From contig NZ_FXXA01000002.1 of assembly GCF_900184265.1 (NCBI RefSeq), forward strand, positions 124,001 to 188,000: 64,000 nucleotides of DNA, read 5' to 3'. Below, in pieces: positions 39,228 through 58,397 of the stretch (the stretch's first letter is position 1; every line of letters starts with the position of its first letter). Position numbers and translations under genes: made by a program. This DNA is from Eggerthella timonensis. GTDB lineage: Bacteria > Actinomycetota > Coriobacteriia > Coriobacteriales > Eggerthellaceae. A model generated the notes under the pieces. It was not told the origin of the DNA. It did no database searches and saw only the letters and a program-made list of their open reading frames with translations.

Positions 39228-39243
39228 AGCAAAAAGCGTGCCA
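39228..39243 (-). promoter_or_regulatory. Sigma-54 promoter of fixAB
   Basis: TGGCACGCTTTTTGCT on the minus strand: exact match to TGGCAC-R-N4-TTGCW. Predicted leader about 37 nt. Confidence 0.85.
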
Positions 39244-41355: not shown

Positions 41356-42774
41356 TTACCGTCTTCGCTGCGACTGCCGCCCGATGCCGAGCGCTTCCCG
41401 ATACTTCGCCACGGTGCGGCGCTTGATGTCCACGCCCTCGCCGTTCAAGATGGTGGTGATGGTCGCATCGCTCAGGGGCTTGCGGCGATCCTCCTGCGCG
41501 ACGAGGTCCTTGATGCGATCCTTGATGGCCAGCGAGGAAAGCGCATGGCGACGCTCTTCGGCCGAGCAGGCCACCGAGCTCGAGAAGAAATGCTTGAGCG
41601 GGTACACGCCCCAGGGGGTGAGCACGTGCTTGTCCTGCACCGTGCGACTGATGGTGGACACGTGCACGCCCAGCGCGTCGGCGGCCTGCTGCATGGTGAG
41701 CGGGCGCATGCGCGCATCGCCGCCGACGAAGAAATCGTATTGGACCTCCGCCAGATATACACCGAAGCGATGGAGCGTCTGGCGCCGTTGGTCGATGTTG
41801 GCCAGCGCCGCATCTGCCTCGGCACGCTTCTGCCCGAGCCATGCGCGCGCCTCGCCGTCCATAAGTCCCTGTTCGGCCATGCGATCGTAGGCTCCGTTGA
41901 GCACGAGCGTCTCCGACAGCTCGCCGGTCACGCGCACCGAGAACCCCGTCCCGTCGGGCATGATGGCCACGTCGGGGACGACGTACACCGTCTCCTTGCG
42001 CTGCGAGAACGACGAACCGGGACGCGGGTCGAGCGTGCAGATGACATCGCGGATGGCCGAGAGGTCGTCGACGCTCACATGGTACGCGCGCGTGAGCTTC
42101 GTCGTGCGATTCTCGGCGAGATCCTCCAAGCTGTTCTGCAGCATCGCGCGAATCACCGACGCATAGGGCGCATCGTCGTCGAGCTGCAGCATGAGACACT
42201 CGGCCAGGTCGCGCGCGCCCACGCCGCGCGGCGTCAGCGTCTGCACGAGCGAGAGCATCCGCTGGCCGTCCTCGGCCGAGCAGCCCGCTTCCGCGCACAC
42301 CGCGGGCATGCTGCCCGAGAAGTACCCATCGTCATCGATGTTCTCGATGAGGACGTCGAGCACAAGACGGTCCCGCTCGCTGATGCACGCCCCCGTCAGC
42401 TGCATGCGCAAGTGGCTTTGCAGCGTCTCGGTCTCCGAGCACTCGTCGCGCAAGCGCGCAAGATCGAACCCACGCGCATCCCACGCGATGGACGACGGAC
42501 GCGCATAGGCACTTTCGACATCGTCGCCGTCGTTGTCAGAAGCGCGTTCGTCCTCGTCGGGAATCTCCTCGAACGACAGGGAGGCATGATCGTAATCAAA
42601 ATCGAGCAGGGGGTTGCGCTCCGCCAGATCGCGCACGTAGGCGTCGAGGCGGGTAACGGGCAGCGCGAGGACCTCGAGCCCCTGGATAGCCGTGGGCGCC
42701 AATCGCTGCTTCGTGCGCAGCGAGACATCGGAACGCGCTTCCACGCGAACAGCTTGGCTCGGATGCTCGGGCAT
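41356..42774 (-). CDS. rpoN: RNA polymerase sigma-54 factor RpoN
   Basis: 472 aa. The N-terminal activator-interacting region is Leu-rich but short on Gln ([24 protein letters not shown]). The core-binding domain is intact and the C-terminal RpoN box reads RRTVAKYRE at 452-460. A helix-turn-helix ([22 protein letters not shown]) contacts -12. ATG 42774 with AAGGGGG upstream; the longer frame was rejected. Sigma-54 is unusual in actinobacteria. First gene of an rpoN-regulator operon with a sigma-70-type promoter at 42899-42927. Confidence 0.93.
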
Positions 42775-42898
42775 GCAACCCCCTTGGTACAGCACGCTGG
42801 TGCCATTCCCCCTCGGCAAGCGCGTGGTTTTACCGACAAGCGGTGTCAATACGCTCATTTTAAGATGATTCCGTGAAATTTTCAACTAAGTATGCGAT

Positions 42899-42927
42899 AT
42901 TATAAACTTTAGCATGATTTTTGCTAA
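42899..42927 (-). promoter_or_regulatory. Candidate sigma-70 promoter of rpoN
   Basis: Minus strand: TTAGCA, 17-bp spacer, TATAAT; about 125 bases upstream of the rpoN ATG. Confidence 0.5.
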
Positions 42928-42970
42928 TTGTTTTACTAATCTATGGATAAAGCTCAGGAAGGACCCCTTC

Positions 42971-43399
42971 ATGACGTGCGATCCATCCACCCTCGCCATT
43001 CGAGAAGCAACCGAGCGCGACGGCGACGCCATCGCGCGTCTGGCCGAAGATGCCGGCATGGGCACGCTCACCCCGCGCGGAACGTCGTACGTCGCGCTGA
43101 GCGAAGGACGCATCGTCGGCTTCATCCGCATCGTCGAAGCCGAAGGCAGCTGGTACATCAGCCCCATCGTGGTCGACGCGCGGGCGCGGCGGCTCGGCGT
43201 TGGACGCGCTCTCATGGAGGACGCACGGGCCCGTTACGGCGCGCTGCTGTTCGTCGCGCGCGGCCCGGCGGTTCCCTTCTACACGGCGCTCGGGTGCGAG
43301 CAGGTGGCGCGCGAGCGCATTTCGCCCGACCTCGGCGAGGACTGCGACACGTGCCCCGATTTCGCCACTTGCTCCCCCGTCCCCATGATCTACCGCTGA
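42971..43399 (+). CDS. GNAT-family N-acetyltransferase
   Basis: 142 aa. Acetyl-CoA loop RARRLGVGRALM is near residue 75. The C-terminal CDTCPDFATCSPVPM cysteines may bind metal or form disulfides. ATG 42971 follows AGGAAGGA. Divergent from rpoN and facing a REP-like palindrome downstream. Substrate unknown. An imperfect -24/-12 sequence (TAGCATGATTTTTGCT, 42910-42925) precedes it. Confidence 0.8.
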   Translation: MTCDPSTLAIREATERDGDAIARLAEDAGMGTLTPRGTSYVALSEGRIVGFIRIVEAEGSWYISPIVVDARARRLGVGRALMEDARARYGALLFVARGPAVPFYTALGCEQVARERISPDLGEDCDTCPDFATCSPVPMIYR

Positions 43400-43443: not shown

Positions 43444-44241
43444 CTAGCGCGGGTTCTTCGCTTCCGGGGCCGGATCGGCGGGACCGGCGTAGGTTTGCAC
43501 GATACCGGCGTAGATGCGCGCCTCGTCGCCGACTACCTCGAGGTCGGTATCCATCCAGTTGCGCCGACGGATAGCCACGAGCGCCCAGTCTTTCGCCGAC
43601 CCCTTGATGTAGTTCTGATCGTTCGGCTCGCCCTTCGTCCACAGCTCGCCCGACGGCAGCGTCAGCTCGAGATGCATCGGGATCGCAGGGTCGAACGCGA
43701 GGCCGTTCACGTTGTACATGTTCGGACGGCCCTGCCATGAAAGGAACAGCGTGGAGGCGATGCGCTCCTTCACCACAGGGTCGATGCCCATCGCGTCGTA
43801 CAGGTCCACGCTGTGCGCCCACAGCTCCATGAGGCGCGCCGACGCGAGCGAGCGCACGGACATGGGCGGAATGCCGGCGGCCCACGGCACGCGGCCCTTC
43901 GGGCCCAGCTCCATGAAGGCGGCCGTCATAAGGGTGCGCTGCTCGCGCCACCAGTTCAGGATATCGGCGCCGCTCTGGTCGCGGAACGCCATCACGTGGT
44001 AGTTCTCGTCCTGCTCGGACGCGGCGTCGGCCACGGCGTTCACGCTCTCGCCACGCCCGGCCAAAAGCTCGACCGCGCAGTAGTCGAAGAACGCGATGTG
44101 GCAGATGACGTCCTTGAACGTCCAGGTGGTGCAGTAGGCGGCCATGCGGTTCCAGTCGTCCTCGGTGAAGTCGGCAACGAGCGAATCGACCAGGGATTGC
44201 TCCGCCACGAGGTCGTCGACGGGATTGAAGATTTGGGGCAT
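43444..44241 (-). CDS. DinB/maleylpyruvate-isomerase-fold protein (TIGR03084-like)
   Basis: 265 aa. An N-terminal DinB-like helical bundle with likely metal or thiol-cofactor His residues (VICHIAFFDYCAVELL; LMELWAHSVDLYDAMG) and a C-terminal SCP2-like half. This arrangement matches the TIGR03084/wyosine-base family of uncertain function; relatives act as mycothiol- or glutathione-dependent isomerases. Downstream of the CaiA-like gene on the same strand, so it may be the end of the same transcript. Confidence 0.75.
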   Translation of the reverse strand: MPQIFNPVDDLVAEQSLVDSLVADFTEDDWNRMAAYCTTWTFKDVICHIAFFDYCAVELLAGRGESVNAVADAASEQDENYHVMAFRDQSGADILNWWREQRTLMTAAFMELGPKGRVPWAAGIPPMSVRSLASARLMELWAHSVDLYDAMGIDPVVKERIASTLFLSWQGRPNMYNVNGLAFDPAIPMHLELTLPSGELWTKGEPNDQNYIKGSAKDWALVAIRRRNWMDTDLEVVGDEARIYAGIVQTYAGPADPAPEAKNPR

Positions 44242-44438: not shown

Positions 44439-45620
44439 TCAGGCCGACGGAACAAATTGCTTCTGGATGGCTCGTCCGGCGATGTGGATCATGATCTCGT
44501 CGGTGCCGGCGCCGATGCGGTAGACGCGCTGGTCGCGCCACAGGCGCGAGATGCGGCAGTCCTTCGTGTAGCCGATGCCGCCCATCACCTGCAGCGCGGT
44601 GTCGCACACCTCGAACGCGGCGCGGCCGCAGTACAGCTTCGCCACGGCAGAGTCGATCTGCACCGACTCGCCGTTGTCGATCTTCCACGCCGTCTTGTAC
44701 ACCCAGTTGCGCATGTTCTCGATCTTCAGGTACATGTCGGTGATATGCTCCTGGATGAGCTGGTTCTTGCCGATGGGCTTGCCGAACTGGACGCGCTGCG
44801 TGGCGTAGCGCACGGCGTCCTCGTAGGCGCACTCCGCGGCGCCGAGCGACTGGGCGCATGCCAGCAGACGCTCCACCTCGAAGTTCACCATGGCCTGCAT
44901 GAAGCCGTTGCCCTCGACGCCCACGAGGTCCTTCTCCTCAAGCTCCACGTCCTGCATGTGCAGCTCGCAGGTGTTTCCCATGTTCCAGCCGATCTTCTCG
45001 AGCGGCTCGATGGAGATGCCGGGAGTCAGGTTGCCCTCGTCGTCGCGCAGCGGCACCCACCACATGGAGAAGCGCGAGCGGTTGGCGCGCTCGGCGGGAT
45101 CGTCGTCGGCATTGCGGGCCACGCACAGCATGTACTTCGAGTTCACGGCGTTCGTCATAAACGACTTGCTGCCGTTGAGGTACACCTTGCCGTCGCGACG
45201 CTGGTAGGTGCTGGCCAGCGCAGAGCTGTCGCTGCCCGCGCCCGGCTCGGTGAAGCCCAGCACGAATCCGGGGCGGCCCGCCATCACCTCGGCGAAGCAC
45301 TGCTCCTGCTGCTCGGGAGTACCGTACTCGGTCATGTCCTTGAGCGCGCACAGGTTGCCGTACACGTAGATGGGCGCGCCGTTCTTGCACACGCGCTCGG
45401 CCACCAGCATGAGCGTGGTCACATCGACGGGGGTGCCGCCGAACTCCTCGTCCACGCCCAGCATCTGGAAGCCGTTCTCCAGCAGCGCGTCGGTGAACTC
45501 GTGCGGCCATTCGTGCTTCTCGTCGCACTCCTTCATGTACTGCTCGGTGCAGTAACGCTCCATCAGCTCGTCGAGGCTCTCAAGCAGAAGCTGCTGCTCG
45601 TCGGTCAAACTGAAATCCAT
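44439..45620 (-). CDS. Acyl-CoA dehydrogenase, CaiA (crotonobetainyl-CoA reductase)-like
   Basis: 393 aa. Start MDFSLTDEQQLLLESLDELM, FTEPGAGSD flavin motif, KSFMTNA and GGIGYTKDCRISRLWRD match the CaiA subgroup. In most short-chain dehydrogenases the C-terminal catalytic base is Glu in an EGT motif; here it is AGT (RIGAGTDEI), as in CaiA where it is also non-acidic (recollection). That favours a reductase using FixAB electrons. Translated 2 bases after the ligase fusion on the minus strand. Confidence 0.87.
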   Translation of the reverse strand: MDFSLTDEQQLLLESLDELMERYCTEQYMKECDEKHEWPHEFTDALLENGFQMLGVDEEFGGTPVDVTTLMLVAERVCKNGAPIYVYGNLCALKDMTEYGTPEQQEQCFAEVMAGRPGFVLGFTEPGAGSDSSALASTYQRRDGKVYLNGSKSFMTNAVNSKYMLCVARNADDDPAERANRSRFSMWWVPLRDDEGNLTPGISIEPLEKIGWNMGNTCELHMQDVELEEKDLVGVEGNGFMQAMVNFEVERLLACAQSLGAAECAYEDAVRYATQRVQFGKPIGKNQLIQEHITDMYLKIENMRNWVYKTAWKIDNGESVQIDSAVAKLYCGRAAFEVCDTALQVMGGIGYTKDCRISRLWRDQRVYRIGAGTDEIMIHIAGRAIQKQFVPSA

Positions 45621-45621: not shown

Positions 45622-48321
45622 TTATCGTTCCTTTCCTTCGGTTCCCTGAACGCCTTGCCCCATGAAATACCGGTACGCATCTTCCGCGCGCTCCCTGCGC
45701 ACCCGCCCTTCGCCCCTGAGGTGGTCGAGGTGGGCCAGCGTTTCGCACACGATGATCCAACGCTGGATGATGGGGATCCCCTCCCAGGTGTCATGCGGAA
45801 TGTTCCACGTGATGGACTTAGCAAGTTCCGTGCCAGTCATGCCGGGGCGCTCGGCGATTCGCGCGAGAATCTCGTCGAGCCGCTGGTGATGATGCTGGCG
45901 CAGCCACGCGATGCGCTCGGGCATGGCCTCGGCCTGCCGGCGCGGGTCGACGAACCCGTGCCCCATGCAGGCGAGCGTCACCGGCAGTTGCGCCACCTTG
46001 TCCAGACTGTGCAGATAGTCTCCCAGCGAATCCGCTTCGTCGGGAAACGGAGCCATGTTGGGCGAGCTGTTCATCAGCACGTGGTCGCCGTAGAACATGA
46101 TCTTCCGATCGGGCAGGTACAGGCATTGGTGTCCCGGCGTGTGCCCAGGCGTCTCCACCGCCCGCATCCGGTAGCCGCCGTAGCGCATCTCGTCCCCGTC
46201 GGCCAGGTTCACGAAGCTCTCGGGCATAGGCCATTCCGTGCGCGGGATGAGGCTGGCATCGGTGCGCTCGAGCTCGTCCAGCTCGTCCGGCGGAAAGCCC
46301 TCGCGCGCCAGCCGCGCCTTCACCGTGCCGCGATACGAGCGCGCGCCCCTGCCGCGGAATACCTCCTCGTCGCGCGAGCTCAAGTACACCTTCGTATCCT
46401 CGTGTGCAAGCGCCGCGACCAGTCCCAGGTGGTCGATGTGGAAGTGCGTGGCGAACACGTCGGTGCGCGCCATGTCCACGCGCAGATCCTGCAACGCCGA
46501 ACGCAGCACCTCGTAGGACGCCTCATGGCTCACGCCGGTGTCCACCAGCAGGTTGCGCTCGTCGGTGACGATGAGGTAGGCGTTCGTGTAGCCGATGGGC
46601 GTGCCGCCTGAGTACGGCACCTGGATGAGGTAGATGTCGGGGTCGCTGCACAGCTTCTCGTGGTGACGCGGCGCAGCCTGCTCCTTGCGTTCGTCGAAGT
46701 ACGCGACGACGTCGAGCTTCCGCACCTTGCCCGCGCTGTCGCGCCCCAGGTCGTCCATGAACACGACATAGCGCGGCTTCTTGTAGCTGGCGATGTAGCC
46801 CTTGCAGTGCGTCTGCACCTCGGCCGCCGTGAGGTTCGAGCCCGCTCGCGGCTGAATGACGGCTGCCACGGCCTCCCCCATCACCGGGTCGCTCGTGCCG
46901 AACACGACGCAATCCCCCACATCCGGGTGCGTGCGCAGCACGTTTTCCACCTCGGCGACGAACACGTTCTCGCCGCCCGACTTGATCATGTCCTTCTTGC
47001 GCGACCGCACGTAGTAGTATCCCTCCGCGTCGCGCATCATAAGGTCGCCCGTGCGCAGCCAGCCATCGGACGTGAACGCCTCGTCGGTAAGGTCGCGCTG
47101 CCCGTAGTAGCCGCGCATCACCGACGCCGAGCGGAACAGCGCCTCGCCCACTTCGCCGTCGGGCACCTCTTGGCCCGCCTCGTCCACCACCTTCATCTCC
47201 ACGTGCTTCATCGGCCGCCCCACGCTCTCCAGCAGGGGCGAATCGGCCTCGAGCATCGCGCGCGTGATCTTCAGGCTGCTGCCCGCGCCGCTTTCCGACT
47301 GGCCCCAGCCGTAGTTGAGCACCGCGTTGGGGAACTTGTCGTAGATGGCCTGGATGATAGGCTTCGTGGTGGCTCCGGCGGCGCTTTGCACGAGGCGCAC
47401 CGAGCTGAGGTCGTACTGGTCGATGGTGGGACACCGCAGCAGGCGCAGGTACGTGGTGGGCGGCAGCAGAATCATGTACGTCACCCGGTAGAACTCGATG
47501 AAGTGGAGGATCTGCTCGGCGTTGAACGCCTCGCAGATGACCAGCGTCGCTCCCGCCGCGAACGTGATGGTGAACCAGCTATGGCCGCCGTGATGCTCGA
47601 GCGGGCACTGGATGAGCACCACGTTGTCAGGATCGTCGCCGATGCCGTTCGAGTCCATGATGGCATCGAGCTCCACGAGGTCGGCGGCATGGGTGCGCGC
47701 GGCGCCCTTCGGCAGGCCCGTCGAGCCGCCCGTGTACTGGATGCGCGACAGGGCGTTCGGGTCGCGGAACAGCGGGGGCTCGGCAGTGTCGTGGCCGGCG
47801 CGCGCCCGCTCCAGCTCCAGGGCGGGGCAGGGGGACGGGGTGAGACAGAGGGACGGGGTAATCGTCTCATCTTGCTCGCAAGATGAGACGATTACCCCGT
47901 CCCTCTGTCTCACCCCGTCCCCGCCTACGCTGACGAGCGCCACGTCGGCCGAAAACGCACGCGCCGCCTCGGCCACTGCCGCGGCGAACTGGTGGGCGAA
48001 CACGAGCACTTCGGCTCCGCTCGCGTTCACCAGATAGCCGATCTCGCGCGGGATGAGCTTGTAGTTCAAAGGCACGGCAACGGCTCCGATCTTCTGGATG
48101 GCGTAGTACACCTCCAGAAGCTCGGAGCAGTTCGGCAACAGGTAGGCCACGCGGTCGCCCGGCCGAACGCCCAGGTCGCTGACCAGCACCGCTGCCGTTT
48201 GGTTGACGCGATCGTTCAGGGCGCCGTAGGTGATCTCGCGTCCGTCGAACACGACGGCCGTTTTATCGGGATGCGCCTGCGCGCTTGCGAGGAACGGTTC
48301 CGCTACGTTGCACTGTGCCAT
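45622..48321 (-). CDS. CaiC-like acyl-CoA ligase fused to a metallo-beta-lactamase-fold domain
   Basis: 899 aa. Residues 1-~545 are an AMP-forming ligase: P-loop YTGGSTGLPKG at 196-206, YGWGQSE, DGWLRTGDL and C-terminal GKVRKL. From ~560 an MBL-fold hydrolase follows, with the metal motif THFHIDHLG (His at 625-630), PGHTPGH (~724) and YGDH (~744). No stop or start separates them. Residues 133-164, immediately before the P-loop, are encoded by a 92-bp palindrome of the GAGACAGAGGGACGGGG family inserted in frame. The MBL part may be a thioesterase (inference). Confidence 0.87.
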   Translation of the reverse strand: MAQCNVAEPFLASAQAHPDKTAVVFDGREITYGALNDRVNQTAAVLVSDLGVRPGDRVAYLLPNCSELLEVYYAIQKIGAVAVPLNYKLIPREIGYLVNASGAEVLVFAHQFAAAVAEAARAFSADVALVSVGGDGVRQRDGVIVSSCEQDETITPSLCLTPSPCPALELERARAGHDTAEPPLFRDPNALSRIQYTGGSTGLPKGAARTHAADLVELDAIMDSNGIGDDPDNVVLIQCPLEHHGGHSWFTITFAAGATLVICEAFNAEQILHFIEFYRVTYMILLPPTTYLRLLRCPTIDQYDLSSVRLVQSAAGATTKPIIQAIYDKFPNAVLNYGWGQSESGAGSSLKITRAMLEADSPLLESVGRPMKHVEMKVVDEAGQEVPDGEVGEALFRSASVMRGYYGQRDLTDEAFTSDGWLRTGDLMMRDAEGYYYVRSRKKDMIKSGGENVFVAEVENVLRTHPDVGDCVVFGTSDPVMGEAVAAVIQPRAGSNLTAAEVQTHCKGYIASYKKPRYVVFMDDLGRDSAGKVRKLDVVAYFDERKEQAAPRHHEKLCSDPDIYLIQVPYSGGTPIGYTNAYLIVTDERNLLVDTGVSHEASYEVLRSALQDLRVDMARTDVFATHFHIDHLGLVAALAHEDTKVYLSSRDEEVFRGRGARSYRGTVKARLAREGFPPDELDELERTDASLIPRTEWPMPESFVNLADGDEMRYGGYRMRAVETPGHTPGHQCLYLPDRKIMFYGDHVLMNSSPNMAPFPDEADSLGDYLHSLDKVAQLPVTLACMGHGFVDPRRQAEAMPERIAWLRQHHHQRLDEILARIAERPGMTGTELAKSITWNIPHDTWEGIPIIQRWIIVCETLAHLDHLRGEGRVRRERAEDAYRYFMGQGVQGTEGKER
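47831..47922. repeat. Perfect 92-bp palindrome inside the ligase coding sequence
   Basis: 46-bp arms beginning GGGGACGGGGTGAGACAGAG with a TC centre. Translated in frame within the CaiC-like gene as residues 133-164. Confidence 0.92.
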
Positions 48322-48342: not shown

Positions 48343-49176
48343 TCAGCGGGCAAATCTCTCCATAGTGGCGGCGTACGCCTTCGTCGTCGTGCAGAACGGC
48401 GACGCCGTCGATTCGGCTTCCAGGCATGCCTCCAGATTGCCGTCGGCAAGCCCGTTCATGATGTTCTTCGTCAGCTGGATGGACGCGTCGGGCATTCCCG
48501 CCAGCTGGCGCGCGAACCAAAGCGTGTCGGCTTCCAGGGTCTCAGCCGGGAACAGCCGGTTCACCACGCCCCAGTCGTACAGCTGGAGCGCAGGGATCTT
48601 GCCGCCGAAGAACAGCAGCTCCTTGGCACGCTGCAGGCCCACCAGATCGGGCAGCAGCTTCATCATGCCCATCTCGGGCACGATGCCGATCTGGCAGAAC
48701 GCCGGCACGAACTGCGCACGCTCGGACGCGCACACGAGGTCCGACGCGCACACGAGGGCGAATGCGCCGCCCACGGCGTAGCCGTCCACCATCGCGATCA
48801 CCGGCTTCGCCATCGTGCGGATCGTCCGGATCACGGCCAGGTACCGACGCAGCGTCTTGCGCGCGCCCTCGGGGCCGGGCTCGAGGGCGGGGCCCTGATC
48901 GAGGTCCCCGCCGCTCGAGAAGTCGTCCCCCGCGCCGCGCAGCACCACCACGCGCACGCCGTCGTCGACGTCCGCCGCGCGCAACAGCCCGTCGAGCTTG
49001 GTCATCATCTCGCCGGATAGGGCGTTCTTCTTGCGCGGCTGGTTCAGGTAGACGACCTCGATGCCCCCATCGAGCCGTTCGGCGTACACGACGTCGTGAA
49101 CGGAAGCGCACGCAGGAGATCCTTCGACTCCGGCGACTTCGCTCGGAACGACAGGTTGTTCGGTCATAGCACTCAC
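48343..49176 (-). CDS. Enoyl-CoA hydratase/isomerase (crotonase) family protein
   Basis: 277 aa. The oxyanion-hole elements GAGDDFSSGGDLD and DGYAVGGAFALVCASDLV are present; the position after FCQIGIVPEMGMMK normally carries the catalytic Glu. Analogous to CaiD by position. I chose GTG 49176, which has GGAGAGGA upstream; ATG 49167 is possible. The first ~20 residues (VVPSEVAGVEGSPACAS) look repeat-derived, not part of the fold. 21 bases from the ligase gene. Confidence 0.85.
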   Translation of the reverse strand: MSAMTEQPVVPSEVAGVEGSPACASVHDVVYAERLDGGIEVVYLNQPRKKNALSGEMMTKLDGLLRAADVDDGVRVVVLRGAGDDFSSGGDLDQGPALEPGPEGARKTLRRYLAVIRTIRTMAKPVIAMVDGYAVGGAFALVCASDLVCASERAQFVPAFCQIGIVPEMGMMKLLPDLVGLQRAKELLFFGGKIPALQLYDWGVVNRLFPAETLEADTLWFARQLAGMPDASIQLTKNIMNGLADGNLEACLEAESTASPFCTTTKAYAATMERFAR

Positions 49177-49190: not shown

Positions 49191-51287
49191 CTACAGCGCG
49201 CATGCCGCGCGATAGCCCATCTTGGTTGCGTCGGCAATGCGCCCCGGCGTCTCGCAGTCGCCCACGAGGTACACCTCGTCCACGAGCGGCTTGCACGCCT
49301 CGCCCAGATCGTGGTTCTCGGCAAGACCCAGCGTGATGGCCACGGTCTTGGCGGGGATGAACAGCTCCTTGTCTCCCTCCGGCGTGGTCTGCACGGCCTT
49401 CACGCCCTCCTCGGTGATGGCCGTAACGCGCGTGAGCGGGTACATCTCGACGTTCTCGGCCTTCTTGAAACCGCTGATCAGCCCGAAGCGGTCCGAACCG
49501 CCCACGTCGAAGCCCACCTTCTTGCGCTCCTCGACGATGGCGGTGGTGCGGCCCGTCTCCATGCACAGGTGGCCGAACTCGCAGCCCGGCAGGCCGCCGC
49601 CGATGATGGCGACGCTGCGGCCGATGGGCCACGGCGACTTCTCGGTCATCGTGCGCGCGAACGACGGCGTGTAGTAATGCTTGAGGAACTGCGAGCCCGC
49701 GCCCCACATGAAGCTGTTGAGCGCGCCCTTCTTCCCCGCAGGCGCATGACCGTTGATCATCTCGAGGAAATCGTGCGACGACACGACGTTCTTGCCGTCG
49801 GCGCCCGGCACGTCCAGCCCCACGGGCTTGCCGCCCACGGCCACGATGGCCGCGTCGGGCTTGGCCTGCCGCACCGTCTCGGGCGTGACCTTCGTCTTGA
49901 GGTGCACGGTGATCTCGGGGTGCTGCTTCACCTGCGTGAGGAGGTAGTCCAGATAGCGTTCGTGGTAGGGGCTGAAGATGCTGCTCATCTTCACGCATCC
50001 GCCGAGGCGCGGGCCTTCCTCGTACAGGTCCACGGCATGGCCGCGCTGCGCCGCCGTCAGCGCCGCGTTGATGCCGGCCGGCCCCGAGCCAACCACCATC
50101 ACCTTCTTGGCGCTCTGTGCCGGCGGAAACGCCTCATGGTCGAGCTCCTCGCCCAAGCGCGGGTTCACGCCGCAGTTGTTGAGCGGCTTGCCCTGGCTCA
50201 CCACGTCGTCCAGGCAGCGGCAGCACACGATGCACAGGCGCATGTCGCAGGTGCGGTCCTCCATCACCTTGCGGGGCAGCGCTGGGTCGGCGATGCTGTA
50301 GCGCAGCCCGGCCACCACGTCCATCTTGCCGTCCTGCAGGTTCCGTTCCATCACGCGCGGATCGGTGTTGCGGTACCCCTGCGCCACCGGCTTCTTCGCC
50401 ACAGTCTTGATCTGCTGCGAGACGAACGTCCAGTGGCCGTCCTCGATGACCTTCGTGGTGAGCGGCTCGCTGGTCTCGTGCCAGCCCACGGCAAGATCGT
50501 GCAAGTCGCAGCCCGCTTCTTCCAGCATCGGCGCGATGCGCAGCGCCTCCTCCATGGATAGGCCCGGGCCTGCAGGGCTCTTGATGAAGTCGACGGGCGA
50601 CCAGCGCACCACGATGGGGAACTCCGGCCCCACCGCTTCGCGCACGCCGCGGATCACCTCGAGCGTCAGCTTCACGCGGTTCTCCAGGCTGCCGCCGTAC
50701 TCGTCGGTGCGGTTGTTGGTGGCAAGCGCCATGAAGCGCGACAGGATGCCGCCCACGCCGGCCATGACCTCGATGGCGTCGAAGCCGGCCGCCTTGCACA
50801 CGCGCGCCGCATTGAAGAACTGCTGCTTGAACGCCTCGATCCGCTCGAGCGTCATGGCGCGGAAGCCGCCCATGAACTTGAGGATGGCGATATCGGACGG
50901 GCCGTAGGGGCCTTCCGGCGTTTCGGCGTCGGGCTTCCAGTCGTGCACGTAGTACGGCTGTGCGCAGATGAGGCCGCCGTGCTTGTGCACCGGCTCGACC
51001 AGGTAGCGCTGCAGGTCGGGAATGCAGCTTTCGTCGTAGCAGCTGGGCAGCTCGTGGATGTGGTCGGGGTCGATCTCGTTGCGCTTCCACGGGCAGATGG
51101 TTTGGATGATGAGGGCCGTCTGCCCTTCGGCCCGTTCCTCCAGGTAGTTCGCCAAACGCTGCGTGGGACGGTTGTCCTTCGTCACATAGCCCGCGCCCGG
51201 CGACATGGACGTGGTGATCATGCGATTCTTCAAGGTGACGCCGTTCACCTGCAACGGCGATCCCAGGATGGGGTACTGCGTGCTCAT
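49191..51287 (-). CDS. OYE-family flavin/Fe-S enoate reductase (2,4-dienoyl-CoA reductase-like)
   Basis: 698 aa. N-terminal FMN TIM barrel (about 1-380) with the family blocks NRTDEYGGSLENR and the substrate-site His/Tyr expected near VGWHETS. A 4Fe-4S motif CDMRLCIVCCRC...NNC (about 345-375) and a C-terminal FAD/NAD(P)H domain with VVGSGPAGINAAL and AIIGGGLPGCEFG follow. This three-part layout is that of FadH, BaiCD/BaiH and trimethylamine dehydrogenase. Substrate unknown. Downstream of the MFS gene; a palindrome fills the gap between them. Confidence 0.87.
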   Translation of the reverse strand: MSTQYPILGSPLQVNGVTLKNRMITTSMSPGAGYVTKDNRPTQRLANYLEERAEGQTALIIQTICPWKRNEIDPDHIHELPSCYDESCIPDLQRYLVEPVHKHGGLICAQPYYVHDWKPDAETPEGPYGPSDIAILKFMGGFRAMTLERIEAFKQQFFNAARVCKAAGFDAIEVMAGVGGILSRFMALATNNRTDEYGGSLENRVKLTLEVIRGVREAVGPEFPIVVRWSPVDFIKSPAGPGLSMEEALRIAPMLEEAGCDLHDLAVGWHETSEPLTTKVIEDGHWTFVSQQIKTVAKKPVAQGYRNTDPRVMERNLQDGKMDVVAGLRYSIADPALPRKVMEDRTCDMRLCIVCCRCLDDVVSQGKPLNNCGVNPRLGEELDHEAFPPAQSAKKVMVVGSGPAGINAALTAAQRGHAVDLYEEGPRLGGCVKMSSIFSPYHERYLDYLLTQVKQHPEITVHLKTKVTPETVRQAKPDAAIVAVGGKPVGLDVPGADGKNVVSSHDFLEMINGHAPAGKKGALNSFMWGAGSQFLKHYYTPSFARTMTEKSPWPIGRSVAIIGGGLPGCEFGHLCMETGRTTAIVEERKKVGFDVGGSDRFGLISGFKKAENVEMYPLTRVTAITEEGVKAVQTTPEGDKELFIPAKTVAITLGLAENHDLGEACKPLVDEVYLVGDCETPGRIADATKMGYRAACAL

Positions 51288-51428: not shown

Positions 51429-52700
51429 CTAACGGCTGCCGTCGCGCTTCCAGGCTTTCTGGGATAGCGCAAGCGTGATGGGAACCAGGACGACGGCCAG
51501 CACGTACAGGGCGATGACCAGGATGAAGCATAGGTCGAACGAGCCCGTCGTGTCGTAGATCATGCCGTACACCAAGAACGACACGGCCGTTGCGATGAAG
51601 ATGCCCGTGGACACCCAGGAGTAGATCTGCGAGTAGTTGAGCGAGCCGAAGGCCGCGCGCGCCAGCATGGGAGCGATGACCGTGAGGCCCGCGTAGCCGC
51701 CGCCGAACACCACCATGCCCGCGTAGAACAGAGCCACGTTCTCACCGGCGATGTAGGCGAGCAGGATGCCGATGGCGCCGCACGACGCGGCGATGATGCC
51801 CGTGAACTTGACGCCGATCTTGTCGTTGAGCGCGCCCAGCAGCAGCTTGAACACCACGCCTCCCACCATGATGATGGACACGGCCATGGCACCCGCGCTC
51901 GCGCCCAGCGCGCCGTGCGCGGCGAACGCGGGGATCTGCTGGAAGAACGCGGCGCACATGACGAAGATGCAGGCCACGAGGATGAGCAGGTAGAGGCCGG
52001 GCGACTTGATGGCCTGCGCCACCGTGGCGCCCTCGTCAGCCTCGGGGGCCGCGGCGAGCTTGTCGTCGGATGCGTCCTTCTCGCCCGCACCGAACGGCAG
52101 CAGCCCCATCACTGACGGGCTCTTGCGCACGAACGCCACCGTCAGCACCACCGACAGCACCGTGGTGACGATGGACAGCGCGGCGCGCGCCGTCTGCCAA
52201 CCGAACTGGTTGATCAGCTCCTGCCCGATGGGGCTGGCCACGGCCGCCAGAATGGACAGCACCGCCGCCGTGATGCTGATGGCCAGACCGGCGCTCTTCT
52301 TGAACCAGGCGTTGATCAGCACGGGAGCCGCGAGGTACATGTAGAACGCCGACGTTACGCCGTACACGACGCCGTAGAGGTTCCACTGCCACAGCTCGGT
52401 GGCGTAGGCGCTCGCCCACGATGCCAGGCCGAAGGCCGCCGACACCGCAGCGAGGATCCAGCGGGGGTTGTACTTCTCCATCAGCTTGCCGGCGATCGGC
52501 GCACACACGGCCGCGACGAGCGGCTGGATGGTGCGGTACATGGTGGTGTCGGTTTGCGTCCAACCGAACTGGTCCATCACCGGGGCGACGAAAATGCCCG
52601 AGGTGTTGCCGACGATGCCCGTCGGAATCGAATAGAAGCCGATGCACCCGATAACGACGAGCCAAGCCCACACGGCTCCTTTGGTACGTGCAGTGCCCAT
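51429..52700 (-). CDS. MFS transporter, OxlT (oxalate:formate antiporter)-like
   Basis: 423 aa with 12 transmembrane helices; N-terminal GFYSIPTGIVGNTSGIFVAPVM and motif-A-like loops (GKLMEKYNPRWIL). Paralogue of the 55631-56905 carrier. ATG 52700 with AAGGAG upstream. The sigma-54 promoter at 52752-52767 gives a leader of about 41 nt. First gene before the OYE-crotonase-ligase-dehydrogenase series, so the promoter may drive all of them. Probably carries the pathway's carboxylate substrate or exchanges it with product. Confidence 0.87.
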   Translation of the reverse strand: MGTARTKGAVWAWLVVIGCIGFYSIPTGIVGNTSGIFVAPVMDQFGWTQTDTTMYRTIQPLVAAVCAPIAGKLMEKYNPRWILAAVSAAFGLASWASAYATELWQWNLYGVVYGVTSAFYMYLAAPVLINAWFKKSAGLAISITAAVLSILAAVASPIGQELINQFGWQTARAALSIVTTVLSVVLTVAFVRKSPSVMGLLPFGAGEKDASDDKLAAAPEADEGATVAQAIKSPGLYLLILVACIFVMCAAFFQQIPAFAAHGALGASAGAMAVSIIMVGGVVFKLLLGALNDKIGVKFTGIIAASCGAIGILLAYIAGENVALFYAGMVVFGGGYAGLTVIAPMLARAAFGSLNYSQIYSWVSTGIFIATAVSFLVYGMIYDTTGSFDLCFILVIALYVLAVVLVPITLALSQKAWKRDGSR

Positions 52701-52717: not shown

Positions 52718-54061
52718 TCAAATCCCCTGAAACTTCCGATGAAGACCAGAAAGCAAATACCGTGCCAAGTTGGAATGGGAGGGGGGCGGGAATGCGATGC
52801 CGTCCCCCTCCCATTCCAACTTGGCACGGTATTTGCTTTCTGGCTTGAGGAGCTGCTCGTCGTAGAGGCTGGCGACGTCGTCGGGCGTGGCGCCCAACTC
52901 TTCGAGGATGTCCTCGTTGTCGGCGCCCACGAGCGGCATGCCGCGCCATATTTGACCGGGGTTGTTCTTCATGCGAGGCACCACGTTCACCCCGCGGATG
53001 GATTCGTCGTCGTAAGAGCTCTTCCACGACGTGAAGCTCTCGCGCGCCTGGTAGTGGGGATCCCGTTCGGCCATCTCAAAGGTGTAGATGCGGCTGCACG
53101 GAACGCCCGCATCCAGCATGATGCGCTCGGCCTCCTCGGCGGTGTGCGACCCGAAGAACGCTTCCATCGCCTCCTCCAGCACGATGCCGGCCTCGCTGCC
53201 GAACGAGATGACCGGCGTGCCTTCGGGGAACAGCTCGCTGCCGTATTCCAAACCGAACACGGGCAGCGCGGCGCGCACCACGCCGGGACCCAGGATGAGC
53301 GTGTAGATGGGCACGCCGTCCTGGCAGATGTAGGTGCCGTAGCCGGCGCTCGACGTGCTGTGCGACCCCTCGCGCACGGGCAGCGCGCCCGTGTTCAGGT
53401 AGTTCAGCGCATAGAAGCCCTCGCAGCGCAGCATGGCCTCGTACTGGGCAACGTCCACGCTGTCGCCCTTGCCCGTACGCTGCGCGTTGATGTAGCCGGC
53501 CAGCGCGCCGATGCTGGCCATGAAGCCCGCGTAGTAGTCCGACACCTGGGGAAACGCGAGCACCGGCAGACGATCGGGATAGCCGTTCATCTCCATGAAG
53601 CAGCCGTAGGCCTGGCCGATGCCGTCGAACGAGGCGCGCGACACGTACGCCGGATCGCCTGTCTGGCCGAAACCCGAGATGTGCGCGATGGTCAGCTTCG
53701 GGTTGACCTCCCATAGCGCTTCGTCCGACATGCCCCACTTCGCCATCTGGCCGCCGCGGAAGCCGTCCACGAGGATGTCCGCCTGCTTGAGCAGCTCGAA
53801 GAACCAGGTGCGGCCTGCGCCGTCCTTCACGTTCATGCACAGCGAGCGCGTGTTGCGGCGCTCCATCTGCGTGCCCCAGCCCTGCAACGCCTGATTGGTA
53901 GGACGCGAGGTGTCGCGGCCGCGCGGGCTTTCCACGCCGATGACCTCGGCGCCCAGGTCGGCCAGCAGGCTGCAGGCGAACGGGCCCGCGATAGCCATGG
54001 TGAGGTTGACCACCTTCACCCCTTGCAGCGGGCCGAACTTCGGGCAATCTTGAGCTTTCAT
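52718..54061 (-). CDS. Class III CoA-transferase, CaiB-like, with repeat-derived C-terminus
   Basis: 447 aa. PKFGPLQGVKVVNL at the N-terminus and KNNPGQIWRGMP near the C-terminus resemble CaiB (recollection); catalytic Asp175 is in FPQVSDYYAGF. ATG 54061 follows AAGGAGG. Residues ~409-447 are encoded by the 52746-52843 inverted repeat; the paralogue at 57058 ends where this extension starts. The stop is 18 bases from the MFS ATG, so the gene overlaps the MFS promoter. Driven by its own sigma-54 promoter at 54114. Confidence 0.88.
   Translation of the reverse strand: MKAQDCPKFGPLQGVKVVNLTMAIAGPFACSLLADLGAEVIGVESPRGRDTSRPTNQALQGWGTQMERRNTRSLCMNVKDGAGRTWFFELLKQADILVDGFRGGQMAKWGMSDEALWEVNPKLTIAHISGFGQTGDPAYVSRASFDGIGQAYGCFMEMNGYPDRLPVLAFPQVSDYYAGFMASIGALAGYINAQRTGKGDSVDVAQYEAMLRCEGFYALNYLNTGALPVREGSHSTSSAGYGTYICQDGVPIYTLILGPGVVRAALPVFGLEYGSELFPEGTPVISFGSEAGIVLEEAMEAFFGSHTAEEAERIMLDAGVPCSRIYTFEMAERDPHYQARESFTSWKSSYDDESIRGVNVVPRMKNNPGQIWRGMPLVGADNEDILEELGATPDDVASLYDEQLLKPESKYRAKLEWEGDGIAFPPPSHSNLARYLLSGLHRKFQGI
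52752..52767 (-). promoter_or_regulatory. Sigma-54 promoter of the first MFS gene
   Basis: TGGCACGGTATTTGCT on the minus strand, exact consensus. Confidence 0.85.
52822..52837 (+). promoter_or_regulatory. Mirror-copy sigma-54 promoter, antisense to the CaiB-like gene
   Basis: The identical 16 bases TGGCACGGTATTTGCT in plus orientation; no gene start follows, so any transcript would be antisense. Confidence 0.6.
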
Positions 54062-54113: not shown

Positions 54114-54129
54114 TGCAAAATTGATGCCA
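54114..54129 (-). promoter_or_regulatory. Sigma-54 promoter of the CaiB-like gene
   Basis: TGGCATCAATTTTGCA, one departure from consensus (C after TGGCAT). Leader about 42 nt. Back-to-back with the plus-strand promoter. Confidence 0.75.
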
Positions 54130-54132: not shown

Positions 54133-54148
54133 TGGCATGCTTTTTGCG
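54133..54148 (+). promoter_or_regulatory. Sigma-54 promoter of the Hsp70-SBD-like gene
   Basis: TGGCATGCTTTTTGCG; GG and GC are at the correct 10-bp spacing. Leader about 35 nt. Confidence 0.78.
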
Positions 54149-54192
54149 ATGATCGAGGCAAGGGATACCCGATCGATGCAGGAGGAGCGACT

Positions 54193-54954
54193 ATGGCGAG
54201 CAAGGCTTCCGACCTCTATCAGAATATGGTTCGCGTCGACGAACCCGAGGCGCGCATACAGGTGGAGCTGCCGGGCGGCCTATTGCCCCTGGCCCTCAAC
54301 GTGGAGCTGCCGGGCGGCTACGTATCCGAGGTGGTCCCGAGCGACGTGCGCGTGCCCCATACGGCGTCCACGATGTTCTCCACGGCCGACTCGTTCCAGA
54401 TGGCCGCGGAGTTCCACGTCCTCATGGGGAACCGCCCGCTCGCGCGCGACGGCATCGAGCTGTGCCGCATCCGGGTGCGCAACATCAAGTGGAGCGGCGC
54501 AGGCGTGCCCCAGATCGAGCTGCGGTTCGAGCTGGACGCGACGGGTGTCCTGACCGTGTCGGCCGCGAACCTGGACCGGAGCAACGCGGAGATCGTCGCG
54601 TTCACCGCCGGAGACGTCGTCACCCAGAGCGACATCCAGCAGGCCTTGGCCGACGCGCTCGAGCACGAGGCGGCCGACCGGGCCACCCGCGACCTCATCC
54701 AGAAGATGCTCGAGTGCTACGCGTTCATCGGGGCGACGAACGACTACTACAGCGCGGCGAAGAAGAAGATGAGCCACGGCGCGAAAAGCGCGTACAAGCA
54801 AACCCGCAAGCGCCTCGAGAAAGCGCTGAGCGTGGATGTTGCCGACGCAACCGACGACACGGTGGCCGAGCTGGACGCCGCCGAAGCCGCCTTCCGCGCG
54901 CAGCGTCAGCAGATCCTCCCCCTCTACAAGCAAGTGATGGACTGGTACAAGTAG
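54193..54954 (+). CDS. Stand-alone Hsp70 substrate-binding-domain protein (no ATPase domain)
   Basis: 253 aa. Residues about 18-130 follow the DnaK substrate-binding domain: LPLALNVELPGGYVSEVV, the loop MFSTADSFQMAAEFHVLMGNR, then VPQIELRFELDATGVLTVSAAN. The rest is helical and may correspond to a lid (KKKMSHGAKSAYKQTRKRLEKAL). The ~380-residue ATPase domain of Hsp70 is absent, and the gene begins with a good ribosome site (GGAGGA) so it is not a cut-off fragment. Its role is unknown; it might act as a holdase for enzymes of this island (inference). Confidence 0.78.
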   Translation: MASKASDLYQNMVRVDEPEARIQVELPGGLLPLALNVELPGGYVSEVVPSDVRVPHTASTMFSTADSFQMAAEFHVLMGNRPLARDGIELCRIRVRNIKWSGAGVPQIELRFELDATGVLTVSAANLDRSNAEIVAFTAGDVVTQSDIQQALADALEHEAADRATRDLIQKMLECYAFIGATNDYYSAAKKKMSHGAKSAYKQTRKRLEKALSVDVADATDDTVAELDAAEAAFRAQRQQILPLYKQVMDWYK

Positions 54955-55190: not shown

Positions 55191-55209
55191 GCGCGACTGC
55201 GGAGCTGCG

Positions 55210-55630: not shown

Positions 55631-56905
55631 TTACTTCTTTGCCCAGGAGCGACGTCCCATCGGAACGATCACGAGCGAGCAGATGAGCGTCACCACGTAG
55701 AACGCGATGATCAGCCAGAAGCAGCCGGCAAACGATCCGGTGATGTCGTAGATCTGCGCGTAGATGAGCGCCGAGAAACCGGAGAACACGTTGAGGCCGG
55801 TGGCCACCATCGAGAAGATGTTGGCGTAGTCCTTCTGGCCGAACGCCTGACGGCACGCCATGGGCGGCACGATGTTGAGCGCCGCGAAGCCGATGCCGAA
55901 CAGGAACACGCCCACGTAGAACATCATGGCGCTGTCAACGCTGAACAGCACGATGGCGATGCCGAGCGCGCCGAAGACGCTGGCCACCACGCCGGAGACG
56001 CGGGCGCCGGTGTGGTCGCACAGCCAACCCAGGCCGAACTTGCCGAACAGCTGGCCGATCATGCACACGGTCACGCCCATAGCACCCACGGCCGCGCCGA
56101 GCGCGCCGGTGGAAGCATAGGACGAGAACTGCTGCATCATGCCGGCGGCGATCACGAAGAAGCCGGCCATCACGATGAGCAGCCACAGCGCGGGATTCTT
56201 GCGCGCCTGCGCAGCCGTGGCACCCTCGTCGGCGGCAACGTCGATAACGGACTTGGCCTCGGACTTCGCGGACGCAACCTCAGCAGCTCCGTAGCCCCAG
56301 GGCAGCACGCCCATCTTCTCGGGCGACTCGCGCAGCAGCGCAGCGGTCAGCACGACGGACGCGACAAGCGCGATGACGCTGATGATAATACGGGCGGTGT
56401 GCCAACCGTAGCCGCTGATCCAACCCTGGATAACCGGGCTCATGAACGCGCCCAGCAGCGATGCGCACACGCCGATGACGCCGATGACGGTGCCGTTGCT
56501 CTTGGCGAACCAACGGTTGATGAACGTCGGCGTGGCGATGTACATCCAGAACGCGGCAGAAGCGCCGTACAGCACGCCGTACACGTTCCACTGCCACGGT
56601 TCGGTGAACCAGGCGCACGCAAGCGAGGCCAGGCCGAATACGGCAGCGGCAGCGGTCATCACCCAGCGGGGATTGAACTTGGTGATGAGCTTACCGGCGA
56701 ACGGCGTGCAGATGGCCGCCACCCACGGCTGGATGGACATGTACAGCGTTGCATCGGTGCGCGACCAGCCGAACTCTTCCATGACCGGCGATGCGAACAG
56801 GCCCGCTTGGTTGGCCACGAAACCAAGCGGTATAGCGTAGAAGGCTACGCAGGCGATGGCGATCGCCCAGGCGTAGTTGCTGCCCTTCATTGTTTCAGAT
56901 CCCAT
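55631..56905 (-). CDS. MFS transporter, OxlT-like (second copy)
   Basis: 424 aa, 12 helices. Shares FYAIPLGFVANQAGLFASPVMEEFGW and GKLITKFNPRW with the 51429 carrier and is clearly its paralogue. ATG 56905 is preceded by AAAGGAGG. Sigma-54 promoter at 56951 (leader about 35 nt). Two related carriers beside two CaiB-like transferases suggest two substrates or an uptake/export pair (inference). Confidence 0.87.
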   Translation of the reverse strand: MGSETMKGSNYAWAIAIACVAFYAIPLGFVANQAGLFASPVMEEFGWSRTDATLYMSIQPWVAAICTPFAGKLITKFNPRWVMTAAAAVFGLASLACAWFTEPWQWNVYGVLYGASAAFWMYIATPTFINRWFAKSNGTVIGVIGVCASLLGAFMSPVIQGWISGYGWHTARIIISVIALVASVVLTAALLRESPEKMGVLPWGYGAAEVASAKSEAKSVIDVAADEGATAAQARKNPALWLLIVMAGFFVIAAGMMQQFSSYASTGALGAAVGAMGVTVCMIGQLFGKFGLGWLCDHTGARVSGVVASVFGALGIAIVLFSVDSAMMFYVGVFLFGIGFAALNIVPPMACRQAFGQKDYANIFSMVATGLNVFSGFSALIYAQIYDITGSFAGCFWLIIAFYVVTLICSLVIVPMGRRSWAKK

Positions 56906-56950: not shown

Positions 56951-56966
56951 AGCAAAATCCATGCCA
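56951..56966 (-). promoter_or_regulatory. Sigma-54 promoter of the second MFS gene
   Basis: TGGCATGGATTTTGCT, exact consensus on the minus strand. Confidence 0.85.
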
Positions 56967-57057: not shown

Positions 57058-58302
57058 TTACTCGCCCTTGCGCAACACCCCCTTCTCGTACAGCAGCTCG
57101 ATCTCCTCTTCCGAGTAACCGAACTCGTTCAGCACGTCTTTCGTATCGGCGTCGTACTTCGCCCCGCCGCGCACGATCTTGCCGGGATGCTTTTTGAAGC
57201 GCGGGATCATGTTCACCTGCTTGACCGTCTTCTGCGTGATCTCGTCGTAGCAGTCGACGAACACCTCGCGCGCCTGGTAATGAGGGTCGTTCAGCATCAT
57301 CTCGTAGGTCATATGGGGGCTCACCGCCACGCCCATCTGGCCGAATATCCGGTTGACCTCCTCAACCGTGTGCTCCTCGCACCAGCTGTCGAGCGCAGCG
57401 CGAAACTTCGCGGCGCGGTCGGGAAGCGGCTCGTCGAGGCTCTTGCAGCCGGGCTTGCGCGTGATGGAGGGATACGTACCGAGCGGCTGGAAGTCGGGGT
57501 CGTCGGCGAAGCCGAAGAACTCGACGAGTTTCTTCACCGGGCCGGCTCCGCCCACGGCCACCTGGCAGTAACCGTCCTTGCACTTCTGCGCGCCGGCGCA
57601 CGCGCCCACGAGGTCTTCGTTGCCGATGCGCATGGGCTGGATGCCGTGGTTGATGCCGTCGGACAACGTGGCGCCCTGCAAGCGCACGAGGGCTTCGAAC
57701 TGGCAGCAGTCGATGGACTCGCCCTCGCCCGTCTCGCGCGCGCGAATGACGGCGGCCAACGTGGCCCACGCGCCCATGAGGCCGGTCATGAAGTCGCCAG
57801 TGAAGGGCTTGGTCACGCTGGGCGGGCTGTCGGGGAAGCCGTTGAGGTTCGAGTAGCCCGAGAACGCCTGGCCGATGGGATCGAACGACGCCTTGCGCAC
57901 GTAGTCCGGGTCGCCCCAGTTGCCGAAGCCGGAAATATGCAGGATGACCAGCGCGGGATTCGCCTCCCACAGCACCTCGTCGGTAAGCCCCCACTTCTCC
58001 CAGGTGCCGCCCTTGGACGACTCGACCAGCACGTCGGCCCACTTCACCATTTGCAGCAGGATCTCCTTGCCCTCGGGCGAGGGGATGTTGAGCGTGATCA
58101 TGCGCTGGTTTCGGCGATCGACCGACCATGCATCTCCGTACATGCGGTACATGTCGGGCGCCACCGTGCTTTCCAGCTCAATGACGTCGGCGCCTTGCTC
58201 GGCGAACAGCTCGCAGACGAACGGCGCCGCGATGACGGCGCCCGCGTTGAGCACCTTCAAGTTCTGCAAGTTGCCGAACTTGGGGCGATCCGATGACTTC
58301 AT
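57058..58302 (-). CDS. Class III CoA-transferase, CaiB-like (second copy)
   Basis: 414 aa. N-terminal PKFGNLQNLKVLNAG, catalytic Asp170 (KPFTGDFMTGL), and C-terminal KKHPGKIVRGG...GYSEEEIELLYEKG. CaiB-type relatives move CoA between carnitine-like acyl groups. ATG 58302 follows AAGGAGG. Sigma-54 promoter at 58382. The gap to the MFS start contains the MFS promoter, so the two genes have separate promoters. Confidence 0.88.
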   Translation of the reverse strand: MKSSDRPKFGNLQNLKVLNAGAVIAAPFVCELFAEQGADVIELESTVAPDMYRMYGDAWSVDRRNQRMITLNIPSPEGKEILLQMVKWADVLVESSKGGTWEKWGLTDEVLWEANPALVILHISGFGNWGDPDYVRKASFDPIGQAFSGYSNLNGFPDSPPSVTKPFTGDFMTGLMGAWATLAAVIRARETGEGESIDCCQFEALVRLQGATLSDGINHGIQPMRIGNEDLVGACAGAQKCKDGYCQVAVGGAGPVKKLVEFFGFADDPDFQPLGTYPSITRKPGCKSLDEPLPDRAAKFRAALDSWCEEHTVEEVNRIFGQMGVAVSPHMTYEMMLNDPHYQAREVFVDCYDEITQKTVKQVNMIPRFKKHPGKIVRGGAKYDADTKDVLNEFGYSEEEIELLYEKGVLRKGE

Positions 58303-58381: not shown

Positions 58382-58397
58382 AGCAACTAGCGTGCCA
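58382..58397 (-). promoter_or_regulatory. Sigma-54 promoter of the second CaiB-like gene
   Basis: TGGCACGCTAGTTGCT, exact consensus on the minus strand; leader about 70 nt. Confidence 0.83.

Follow-up and report, generated by a model that had tools for sequence, protein, structure and literature searches.

The Hsp70 proteins are textbook chaperones whose grip on a peptide is controlled by ATP. Among them, HscA is the Hsp70 of Fe-S assembly, a full ATP-driven chaperone with a J-protein, whose substrate-binding domain (SBD) serves one dedicated client. Feedback of a protein onto the regulator under which it is made is exemplified by PspA, which binds PspF, and by DnaK, which binds sigma-32, and the cai-fix genes of E. 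coli keep a CoA-transferase, an acyl-CoA dehydrogenase, a ligase, a hydratase and EtfAB together. In Myxococcus xanthus, the PilZ-DnaKs CsdK1 and CsdK2 are reported as likely to stabilise one protein, CdbS (PMC10313047), which gives a precedent for a DnaK variant that serves a particular client. As for sigma-54, the accessible portions of two papers state that Actinobacteria lack the system (PMC3162934) and that Actinomycetota effectively lack a functional RpoN (4 of 173 organisms in the initial search; PMC12316311). Among the titles and abstract openings listed in searches of open-access papers, we found no account of a conserved standalone bacterial Hsp70 SBD and no description of sigma-54 in Eggerthella, and the available part of a paper on E. 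lenta metabolism (PMC10234575) holds nothing on the island described below.

Here we describe a gene for an SBD that stands by itself, found in a 64,000-nucleotide stretch of the Eggerthella timonensis genome (the window; Table 1). The Pfam HSP70 profile matches residues 31-236 of its product at profile positions 390-595 of 599 (E 5.7e-25), and the only other Pfam match, to a DUF (E 0.14), falls under its cut-off. Seventy distinct PDB sequences match the protein (E up to 1), the best 60 of which have Hsp70-type names or are fusions with, or motor subunits of, Hsp70. The NCBIfam equivalog cut-offs for DnaK (111 bits versus 648) and HscA (98 bits versus 708.55) are not reached. No ATPase domain lies 5' of the gene: its open frame could start no earlier than 54082, and the DNA upstream consists of a promoter and CaiB1, a gene on the opposite strand whose start codon is separated from that of the SBD gene by 131 bp. 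A preliminary description had given the interval 54133-54954, which is made up of a promoter plus the gene proper (54193-54954), and the normal ribosome-binding site reported there is present. An antisense open frame of 349 amino acids (54280-55329) overlaps the SBD gene and was favoured by a simple gene caller; we take it not to be a gene. The DNA 3' of the SBD gene (55033-55217) holds GC-rich degenerate repeats, with 7 overlapping copies of 55 nt.

Table 1 The SBD gene, the surrounding island and sigma-54-type sites (positions in the window)
Feature	Position	Strand	Basis or remark
EtfA	37485..38396	-	Pfam
EtfB	38413..39180	-	Pfam
Sigma-54 site upstream of EtfB	39228..39243	-	consensus scan
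Sigma-54 activator (bacterial enhancer-binding protein)	39283..41325	-	E 2.9e-66, only strong match in the genome
RpoN	41356..42885	-	only sigma-54 found in the genome; 369 bits, cut-off 277
Small protein, presumably acetyltransferase-like	42914..43399	+	conserved in the island (synteny)
MDMPI_N/DinB-like protein	43444..44241	-	Pfam
Acyl-CoA dehydrogenase, CaiA-like	44439..45620	-	matched model PRK12341, which we take to be YdiO
Acyl-CoA ligase	45622..48321	-	ORF list, family model; C-terminal part presumably metallo-beta-lactamase-like
Sigma-54 site 200 nt upstream of acyl-CoA dehydrogenase	45820..45835	-	inside the end of the ligase frame
Enoyl-CoA hydratase	48343..49107	-	PF00378; start not fixed
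OYE-type FMN/FAD oxidoreductase	49191..51287	-	BaiCD- and mycofactocin-OYE-like, below family cut-offs
MFS1 transporter	51429..52700	-	homologues common with MFS2 at 37-48% identity; synteny
CaiB1, class III CoA-transferase	52718..54061	-	PF02515, E 8.9e-92
Hairpin upstream of MFS1	52746..52843	.	one sigma-54 consensus per arm: 52752-52767 (-), 52822-52837 (+)
Sigma-54-type promoter (-24/-12) of CaiB1	54114..54129	-	back to back with SBD promoter, 3 bp from TGCCA to TGGCA
Sigma-54-type promoter (-24/-12) of SBD gene, TGGCATGCTTTTTGCG	54133..54148	+	one mismatch to TGGCAN6TTGCW
Ribosome-binding site of SBD gene, aggaggag	54180..54187	+	read from the sequence
SBD gene	54193..54954	+	253 aa; start ATG 54193, stop 54952-54954
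SBD-beta; SBD-alpha lid	residues about 19-138; 145-252		predicted model
MFS2 transporter	55631..56905	-	PF07690
Sigma-54 site upstream of MFS2	56951..56966	-	consensus scan
CaiB2, class III CoA-transferase	57058..58302	-	synteny, family model
Sigma-54 site upstream of CaiB2	58382..58397	-	consensus scan

The AlphaFold2 model of the protein, built from 12 homologues, comprises a beta sandwich and lid helices (pLDDT 89.1, pTM 0.79). Its residues 27-250 superpose on residues 391-607 of E. coli DnaK (1dkx; VIA Z 18.3, rmsd 3.4 over 213; Foldseek E 9.0e-17), and it fits the HscA SBD structure 1u00, the title of which names an IscU peptide, with a Z of 17.3. A copy that is 23% identical to the window's (G254) yields a model with a pLDDT of 86.6 that again fits 1dkx (Z 15.8, rmsd 4.2 over 213). 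The preliminary description had proposed a DnaK-like beta SBD with a helical tail and no ATPase domain, to be compared with DnaK 390-600; that comparison agrees with the proposal, as both models fit DnaK and the Pfam match is confined to the part of the profile that lies in this region. Predicted fold and sequence together would place the protein, hereafter the clamp, in the Hsp70 SBD superfamily. It is not a complete Hsp70 or DnaK, lacking the ATPase domain and the interface to it and falling below the family cut-offs.

We investigated how widely the clamp is distributed. A search for close relatives across 84,980 species yielded three, all in Eggerthellaceae genera: Eggerthella sinensis (82% identity; Eggerthellaceae, Coriobacteriia, Actinomycetota), Adlercreutzia murintestinalis (51%) and A. 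mucosicola (47%). A standalone copy was found in 12 of 396 genomes of the class among the matches listed, all from Eggerthellaceae, and a profile of those 12 run over 138 Eggerthellaceae genomes brought two more, that is, 14 of 138 among the matches listed; because the listed matches end near E 2e-21 (class) and 2e-35 (family), weaker standalone copies could be missed. Proteins in G402 (249 aa), G383 (253 aa) and G346 (310 aa), which lie at or near contig ends and score like ordinary DnaK, were not counted as standalone; in G282 the open frame spans 423 aa and the protein from its likely start 254. Only 3 of 396 genomes drawn from the phylum matched at E 1e-55, all in the window's genus, a threshold and a sampling that would miss independent standalone SBDs. 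Searches for a phage origin gave 12 viral-contig stretches that match a pattern, none of them a relative, and none of the plasmid matches, in 133 records, extended over 80% of the query; the best 15 of these 133 records are annotated as dnaK or have no annotation under the match.

In the 13 other carriers, the clamp is 23-97% identical to the window's copy. In a tree with 32 DnaK rows, a branch supported at 100/100 sets the 14 standalone copies apart. The clade attaches near a second, ~600-aa, DnaK of the family, on long branches flagged by the program that leave both its rooting and its point of attachment unsure; by score, too, the second DnaKs come next after the members of the clade, among the matches listed. 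The reading frame is intact in each of the 14 copies, and among Eggerthella the gene is under purifying selection, with a dN/dS of 0.18-0.23 (6 pairs from 4 genomes) and substitutions concentrated at third codon positions (34/20/69 by position against G070, 28/24/79 against G054). The corresponding dN/dS values were 0.04-0.17 for CaiB1, 0.09-0.13 for the activator, 0.13-0.20 for EtfB, 0.11-0.26 for the acetyltransferase-like gene and 0.08 for the MDMPI-like gene (one pair), indicating that the SBD gene evolves faster than most of the genes compared, and not more so than the acetyltransferase-like gene.

Residues were counted, in DnaK numbering, in the 14 standalone copies and in 31 full-length DnaK rows of the class. 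At positions 414, 415 and 481, the full-length rows have R (31/31), N (31/31) and N (30/31), whereas only 6, 2 and 5 of the 14 standalone copies have R/K414, N415 and D/N481, respectively; the ATPase-facing residues that full-length DnaKs keep have been lost. PMC6843406 states that two residues of the SBD, K414 and D481, form bonds to the ATPase domain and that N415 forms one to the linker. The interdomain linker motif is likewise absent from the standalone copies, which have a variable N-terminus in its place. The peptide-site scaffold is retained (E402, G443, R445 and G468 in 14/14, S427 in 13/14, T428 in 12/14 and Q433 in 13/14), and P419 and G482 are invariant as well. Family-wide changes comprise M404 to P and D490 to N (14/14 each), P464 to W (12/14) and V436 to A and I438 to F (10/14 each); we take M404, the arch residue, V436 and I438 to be peptide-pocket positions and R467-D540 to be the latch. 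R467A is found in 11 of 14 standalone copies and P446 in 13 of 14, and both occur in 19 of 19 second DnaKs. The standalone copies may still bind peptides.

The clamp thus resembles the SBD of DnaK in its predicted fold (SBD-beta plus lid), in a sequence match of about 200 residues and in the peptide-site scaffold, and differs from DnaK in lacking the ATPase domain, the linker motif and the ATPase-facing residues, in having P at position 404 in every copy and in possessing its own sigma-54-type promoter. The fit to HscA is similar (Z 17.3 to 1u00; 98 bits), but here the clamp is alone, and neither IscU nor HscB was found among the island proteins scanned. The second DnaK of Eggerthellaceae, the nearest relative outside the clade among the matches listed, has R467A and P446 in common with the clamp; unlike the clamp, it is full-length, lies outside the island beside a J-domain-like protein and keeps its ATPase-facing residues. 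Its gene is found at G000:C2:970450-972114 (L051 3857-5794), next to that of a protein (L051 3099-3914) which, by its sequence, is presumably J-domain-like, and the two likely form a separate Hsp70 machine. CsdK1 and CsdK2, the nearest case that we met in the literature, are full-length DnaKs that retain a nucleotide-binding domain and a linker and carry PilZ as an additional domain (PMC10313047). The clamp has none of these.

The window also encodes RpoN and a sigma-54 activator, 11 and 13 kb from the SBD gene, which were absent from the preliminary description. Three more activator-domain matches exceed the Pfam cut-off (E 3.7e-8, 9.5e-6 and 5.0e-4) and are read as putative other AAA+ proteins. 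The gene order EtfAB, activator, RpoN, acetyltransferase-like, MDMPI-like, acyl-CoA dehydrogenase, CoA ligase, hydratase, OYE, MFS1, CaiB1, SBD, MFS2, CaiB2 recurs with variations: matches to EtfAB lie next to the activator in 7 of the 14 SBD genomes, and the islands of G206 and G315 are each spread over two contigs. The acyl-CoA dehydrogenase was found at an identity of at least 81% in 15 of 138 family genomes, which are the 14 SBD genomes and G266, and is 81-98% identical to the window's protein in its 14 other carriers. The SBD gene therefore occurs in 14 of 15 island genomes and in none of the 123 others, among the matches listed, a distribution with a chance probability of 3e-18 if genomes were independent, a figure that is only a guide because the genomes are related. 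In G266, MFS2 and CaiB1 lie about 140 bp apart with no SBD gene between them; the CaiB1 site and the opposite TGCCA are kept and the SBD-side -12 is absent, which we read as loss of the SBD gene.

The tie to one metabolic island proposed earlier stands in 14 of 15 genomes, but it concerns the entire sigma-54 island and not CaiB as such. The suggestion that homologues might always neighbour CaiB/MFS genes was not borne out: CaiB directly adjoins the SBD gene in only 9 of 14 genomes, for which reason we rejected it as a fixed partner, and G251 has neither MFS nor CaiB beside the SBD gene. By the curated CaiB and CaiA cut-offs, the island is not a carnitine (cai) operon, as CaiB1 scores 347 bits with the L-carnitine CoA-transferase model (cut-off 413) and the acyl-CoA dehydrogenase 409 bits with the crotonobetainyl-CoA dehydrogenase model (cut-off 540). 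It combines the same set of enzymes as cai-fix and differs in these scores, in the extra OYE and MFS genes and in the sigma-54 sites. A dispersed 89-nt repeat, a perfect palindrome with arms of 39-45 nt, is present in three copies in the window (36052-36140, 47837-47925 and 60890-60978); the copy at 47837 sits inside the CoA-ligase frame, which stays open through it.

In total, 16 sites in the window lie within one mismatch of the sigma-54 consensus, compared with 6.52 expected (sd 2.75) and a maximum of 13 in 100 shuffles of the window. The exact pattern TGGCAYN5TTGCW occurs 11 times in the 3.9-Mb genome (5 times for a reversed-pattern control), with 7 of the 11 within the 19-kb island, upstream of EtfB, acyl-CoA dehydrogenase, MFS1 (two), CaiB1, MFS2 and CaiB2. 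The site of the SBD gene itself ends in TTGCG and is not among the 11. The hairpin upstream of MFS1 is a 44-nt inverted repeat, 98% complementary, with a 10-nt loop.

A -24/-12-like site precedes the SBD gene in 12 of 14 copies, including that of the window; none was found directly upstream in G254 and G315, where the SBD gene follows other genes. The divergent arrangement with a CaiB-like gene that had been described is confirmed in the window, and at all nine CaiB1-divergent loci the -24 elements stand back to back, separated by exactly 3 bp. The arms running from TGCCA/TGGCA outwards to the -12 GC mirror each other in G213 and G253. The sites of G221, G251 and G206 differ in their first base and have no partner site placed back to back with them. 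TTGC lies 39-50 nt ahead of ATG in 10 of 12 copies, 114 nt ahead in G102 and 80 nt in G251. As a sigma-54 holoenzyme covers about 30 bp, the 3-bp spacing suggests that the two directions should exclude each other. By its promoter, the SBD gene is apparently a member of the sigma-54 regulon.

Sigma-54 was found in 99 of 396 Coriobacteriia genomes, 98 of them over the Pfam cut-off, and is thus common in this class, contrary to the accessible statements of PMC3162934 and PMC12316311. Within the family, 31 of 138 genomes encode it, including all 14 with the SBD gene, and G200, G134 and G102 have a second rpoN. Among the 17 sigma-54 genomes without the SBD gene, G266 has the island, G250 has a 4-kb contig with a related RpoN, activator and hydratase, and in 14 no island was found near RpoN within 10 kb on each side or to the contig end. 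In G207 (L091, G207:C63:19605-39604), a different cluster of EtfAB, CaiB, acyl-CoA dehydrogenase and CoA ligase genes lies beside RpoN, with 29-42% identity to island proteins and no SBD. In the window's genome, sigma-54 appears to be tied to a single island.

Our preferred reading, to which we assign a probability of roughly 0.48, is that the clamp would be an ATP-independent holdase or assembly escort, dedicated to one or a few island proteins and controlled by sigma-54. What was computed is the predicted fold, the absence of an ATPase domain and linker, the loss of ATPase-facing residues, a sigma-54-type promoter, linkage to the island and purifying selection. SBD and lid would form a nucleotide-independent, Hsp70-type peptide clamp that, like DnaK in its ADP state, would grip a short hydrophobic segment firmly and let go of it only slowly, as there is no ATPase domain to open it, resulting in a presumably long-lived clamp-peptide complex. 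Sigma-54 and its single activator would switch the clamp on together with the CoA-thioester island, and the clamp would act as a stoichiometric escort, guarding the segment from aggregating or mispairing until a partner subunit or cofactor is available. An island protein is the most likely client, given that the clamp is under the control of the island and was not found without it. The ordinary role of an SBD and the precedent of HscA speak for an enzyme as client. Against it, class III CoA-transferases, acyl-CoA dehydrogenases and OYEs in other settings are not known to depend on a chaperone of their own.

Several observations count against an enzyme holdase. The likely enzyme clients can be far better conserved than the clamp (81-98% for the acyl-CoA dehydrogenase compared with 23-97%), which is odd for an obligate enzyme chaperone, and G266 keeps the island enzymes without it. 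In a mirror-tree comparison with ten island proteins other than CaiB1, which rests on 66 non-independent pairs from 12 genomes and is suggestive only, clamp distances followed those of the activator and RpoN more closely than those of the enzymes included. Correlations (r/partial) were 0.90/0.79 for the activator, 0.88/0.69 for the MDMPI-like protein and 0.87/0.74 for RpoN, followed by OYE (0.82/0.57), MFS1 (0.81/0.54), hydratase (0.78/0.52), acyl-CoA dehydrogenase (0.67/0.31), ligase (0.67/0.27), MFS2 (0.21/-0.51) and CaiB2 (0.10/-0.45); median distances were 1.21 for the clamp, 0.87 for RpoN, 0.60 for the ligase, 0.56 for the activator and 0.16 for the acyl-CoA dehydrogenase. These correlations would fit a feedback regulator, a distinctly less likely reading in which the clamp binds the activator or RpoN, holding it inactive or stabilising it, such that the island tunes its own expression. 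A sigma-54 site ahead of the clamp gene in 12 of 14 genomes is the layout of such a loop, only one sigma-54 and a single strong activator match were found in the genome, and in G254 the order is RpoN-activator-clamp, with the start of the clamp gene overlapping the activator stop (gtgTAATGagg), while in G315 the clamp gene comes after an MFS-like gene that follows the activator. However, the operon link is limited to one or two of 14 genomes, the slowly evolving MDMPI-like protein reaches almost the same correlation across the non-independent pairs, and G266 keeps activator and RpoN without the clamp. The arrangement would match that of PspA-PspF and DnaK-sigma-32, although PspA is not an Hsp70 and DnaK uses a full ATP cycle, which the clamp would do without. 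The fuller proposal, that an SBD freed of its motor became an ATP-independent feedback regulator that binds the activator or RpoN and, made from a bidirectional promoter firing in one direction at a time, sets island expression, we consider rather doubtful.

Attachment of the clade on the side of the second DnaK, with R467A and P446 common to both, could point to a helper or competitor of the DnaK machines of the cell, having clients in common with DnaK or the second DnaK or shielding them from it. We regard this as improbable: the surface and linker through which the clamp would meet an ATPase domain are gone, the second DnaK lies at a different genomic place beside a J-domain neighbour of its own, and it is present in genomes without island or clamp (such as G178 and G357), whereas the clamp follows the island. 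The changed pocket (M404P, V436A, I438F and W464) and the acyl-CoA enzymes encoded nearby might instead suggest that the fold has been reused for a small ligand or one of the pathway's acyl groups in place of a peptide, but S427, T428, Q433 and the lid are kept; we know of no precedent for such reuse of an Hsp70 SBD fold and think it very unlikely. A degraded dnaK fragment or a chance reading frame, finally, would explain why the protein is a piece of a larger known one and is overlapped by the antisense frame. We rejected decay or artefact, which has almost no probability left, on the strength of the clade, the residue pattern and purifying selection, together with the intact frames, the gene's own promoter and ribosome-binding site, the third-position substitutions and the high-confidence fold. 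Degradation, like a different fold, had been named at the outset as an outcome that would overturn the proposal, and the homologues instead form one clade of 14 with a dN/dS of about 0.2 and the expected fold.

Collectively, these results describe, in Coriobacteriia, a sigma-54 system linked to a single island, within a phylum that PMC3162934 and PMC12316311 describe as lacking it. Candidate clients of the clamp make up a short list, the roughly 15 genes of a single island. A conserved lineage that has kept the grip and lid of Hsp70 but shed its motor and linker, together with much of the surface facing the motor, is a natural experiment on what the clamp can do alone.
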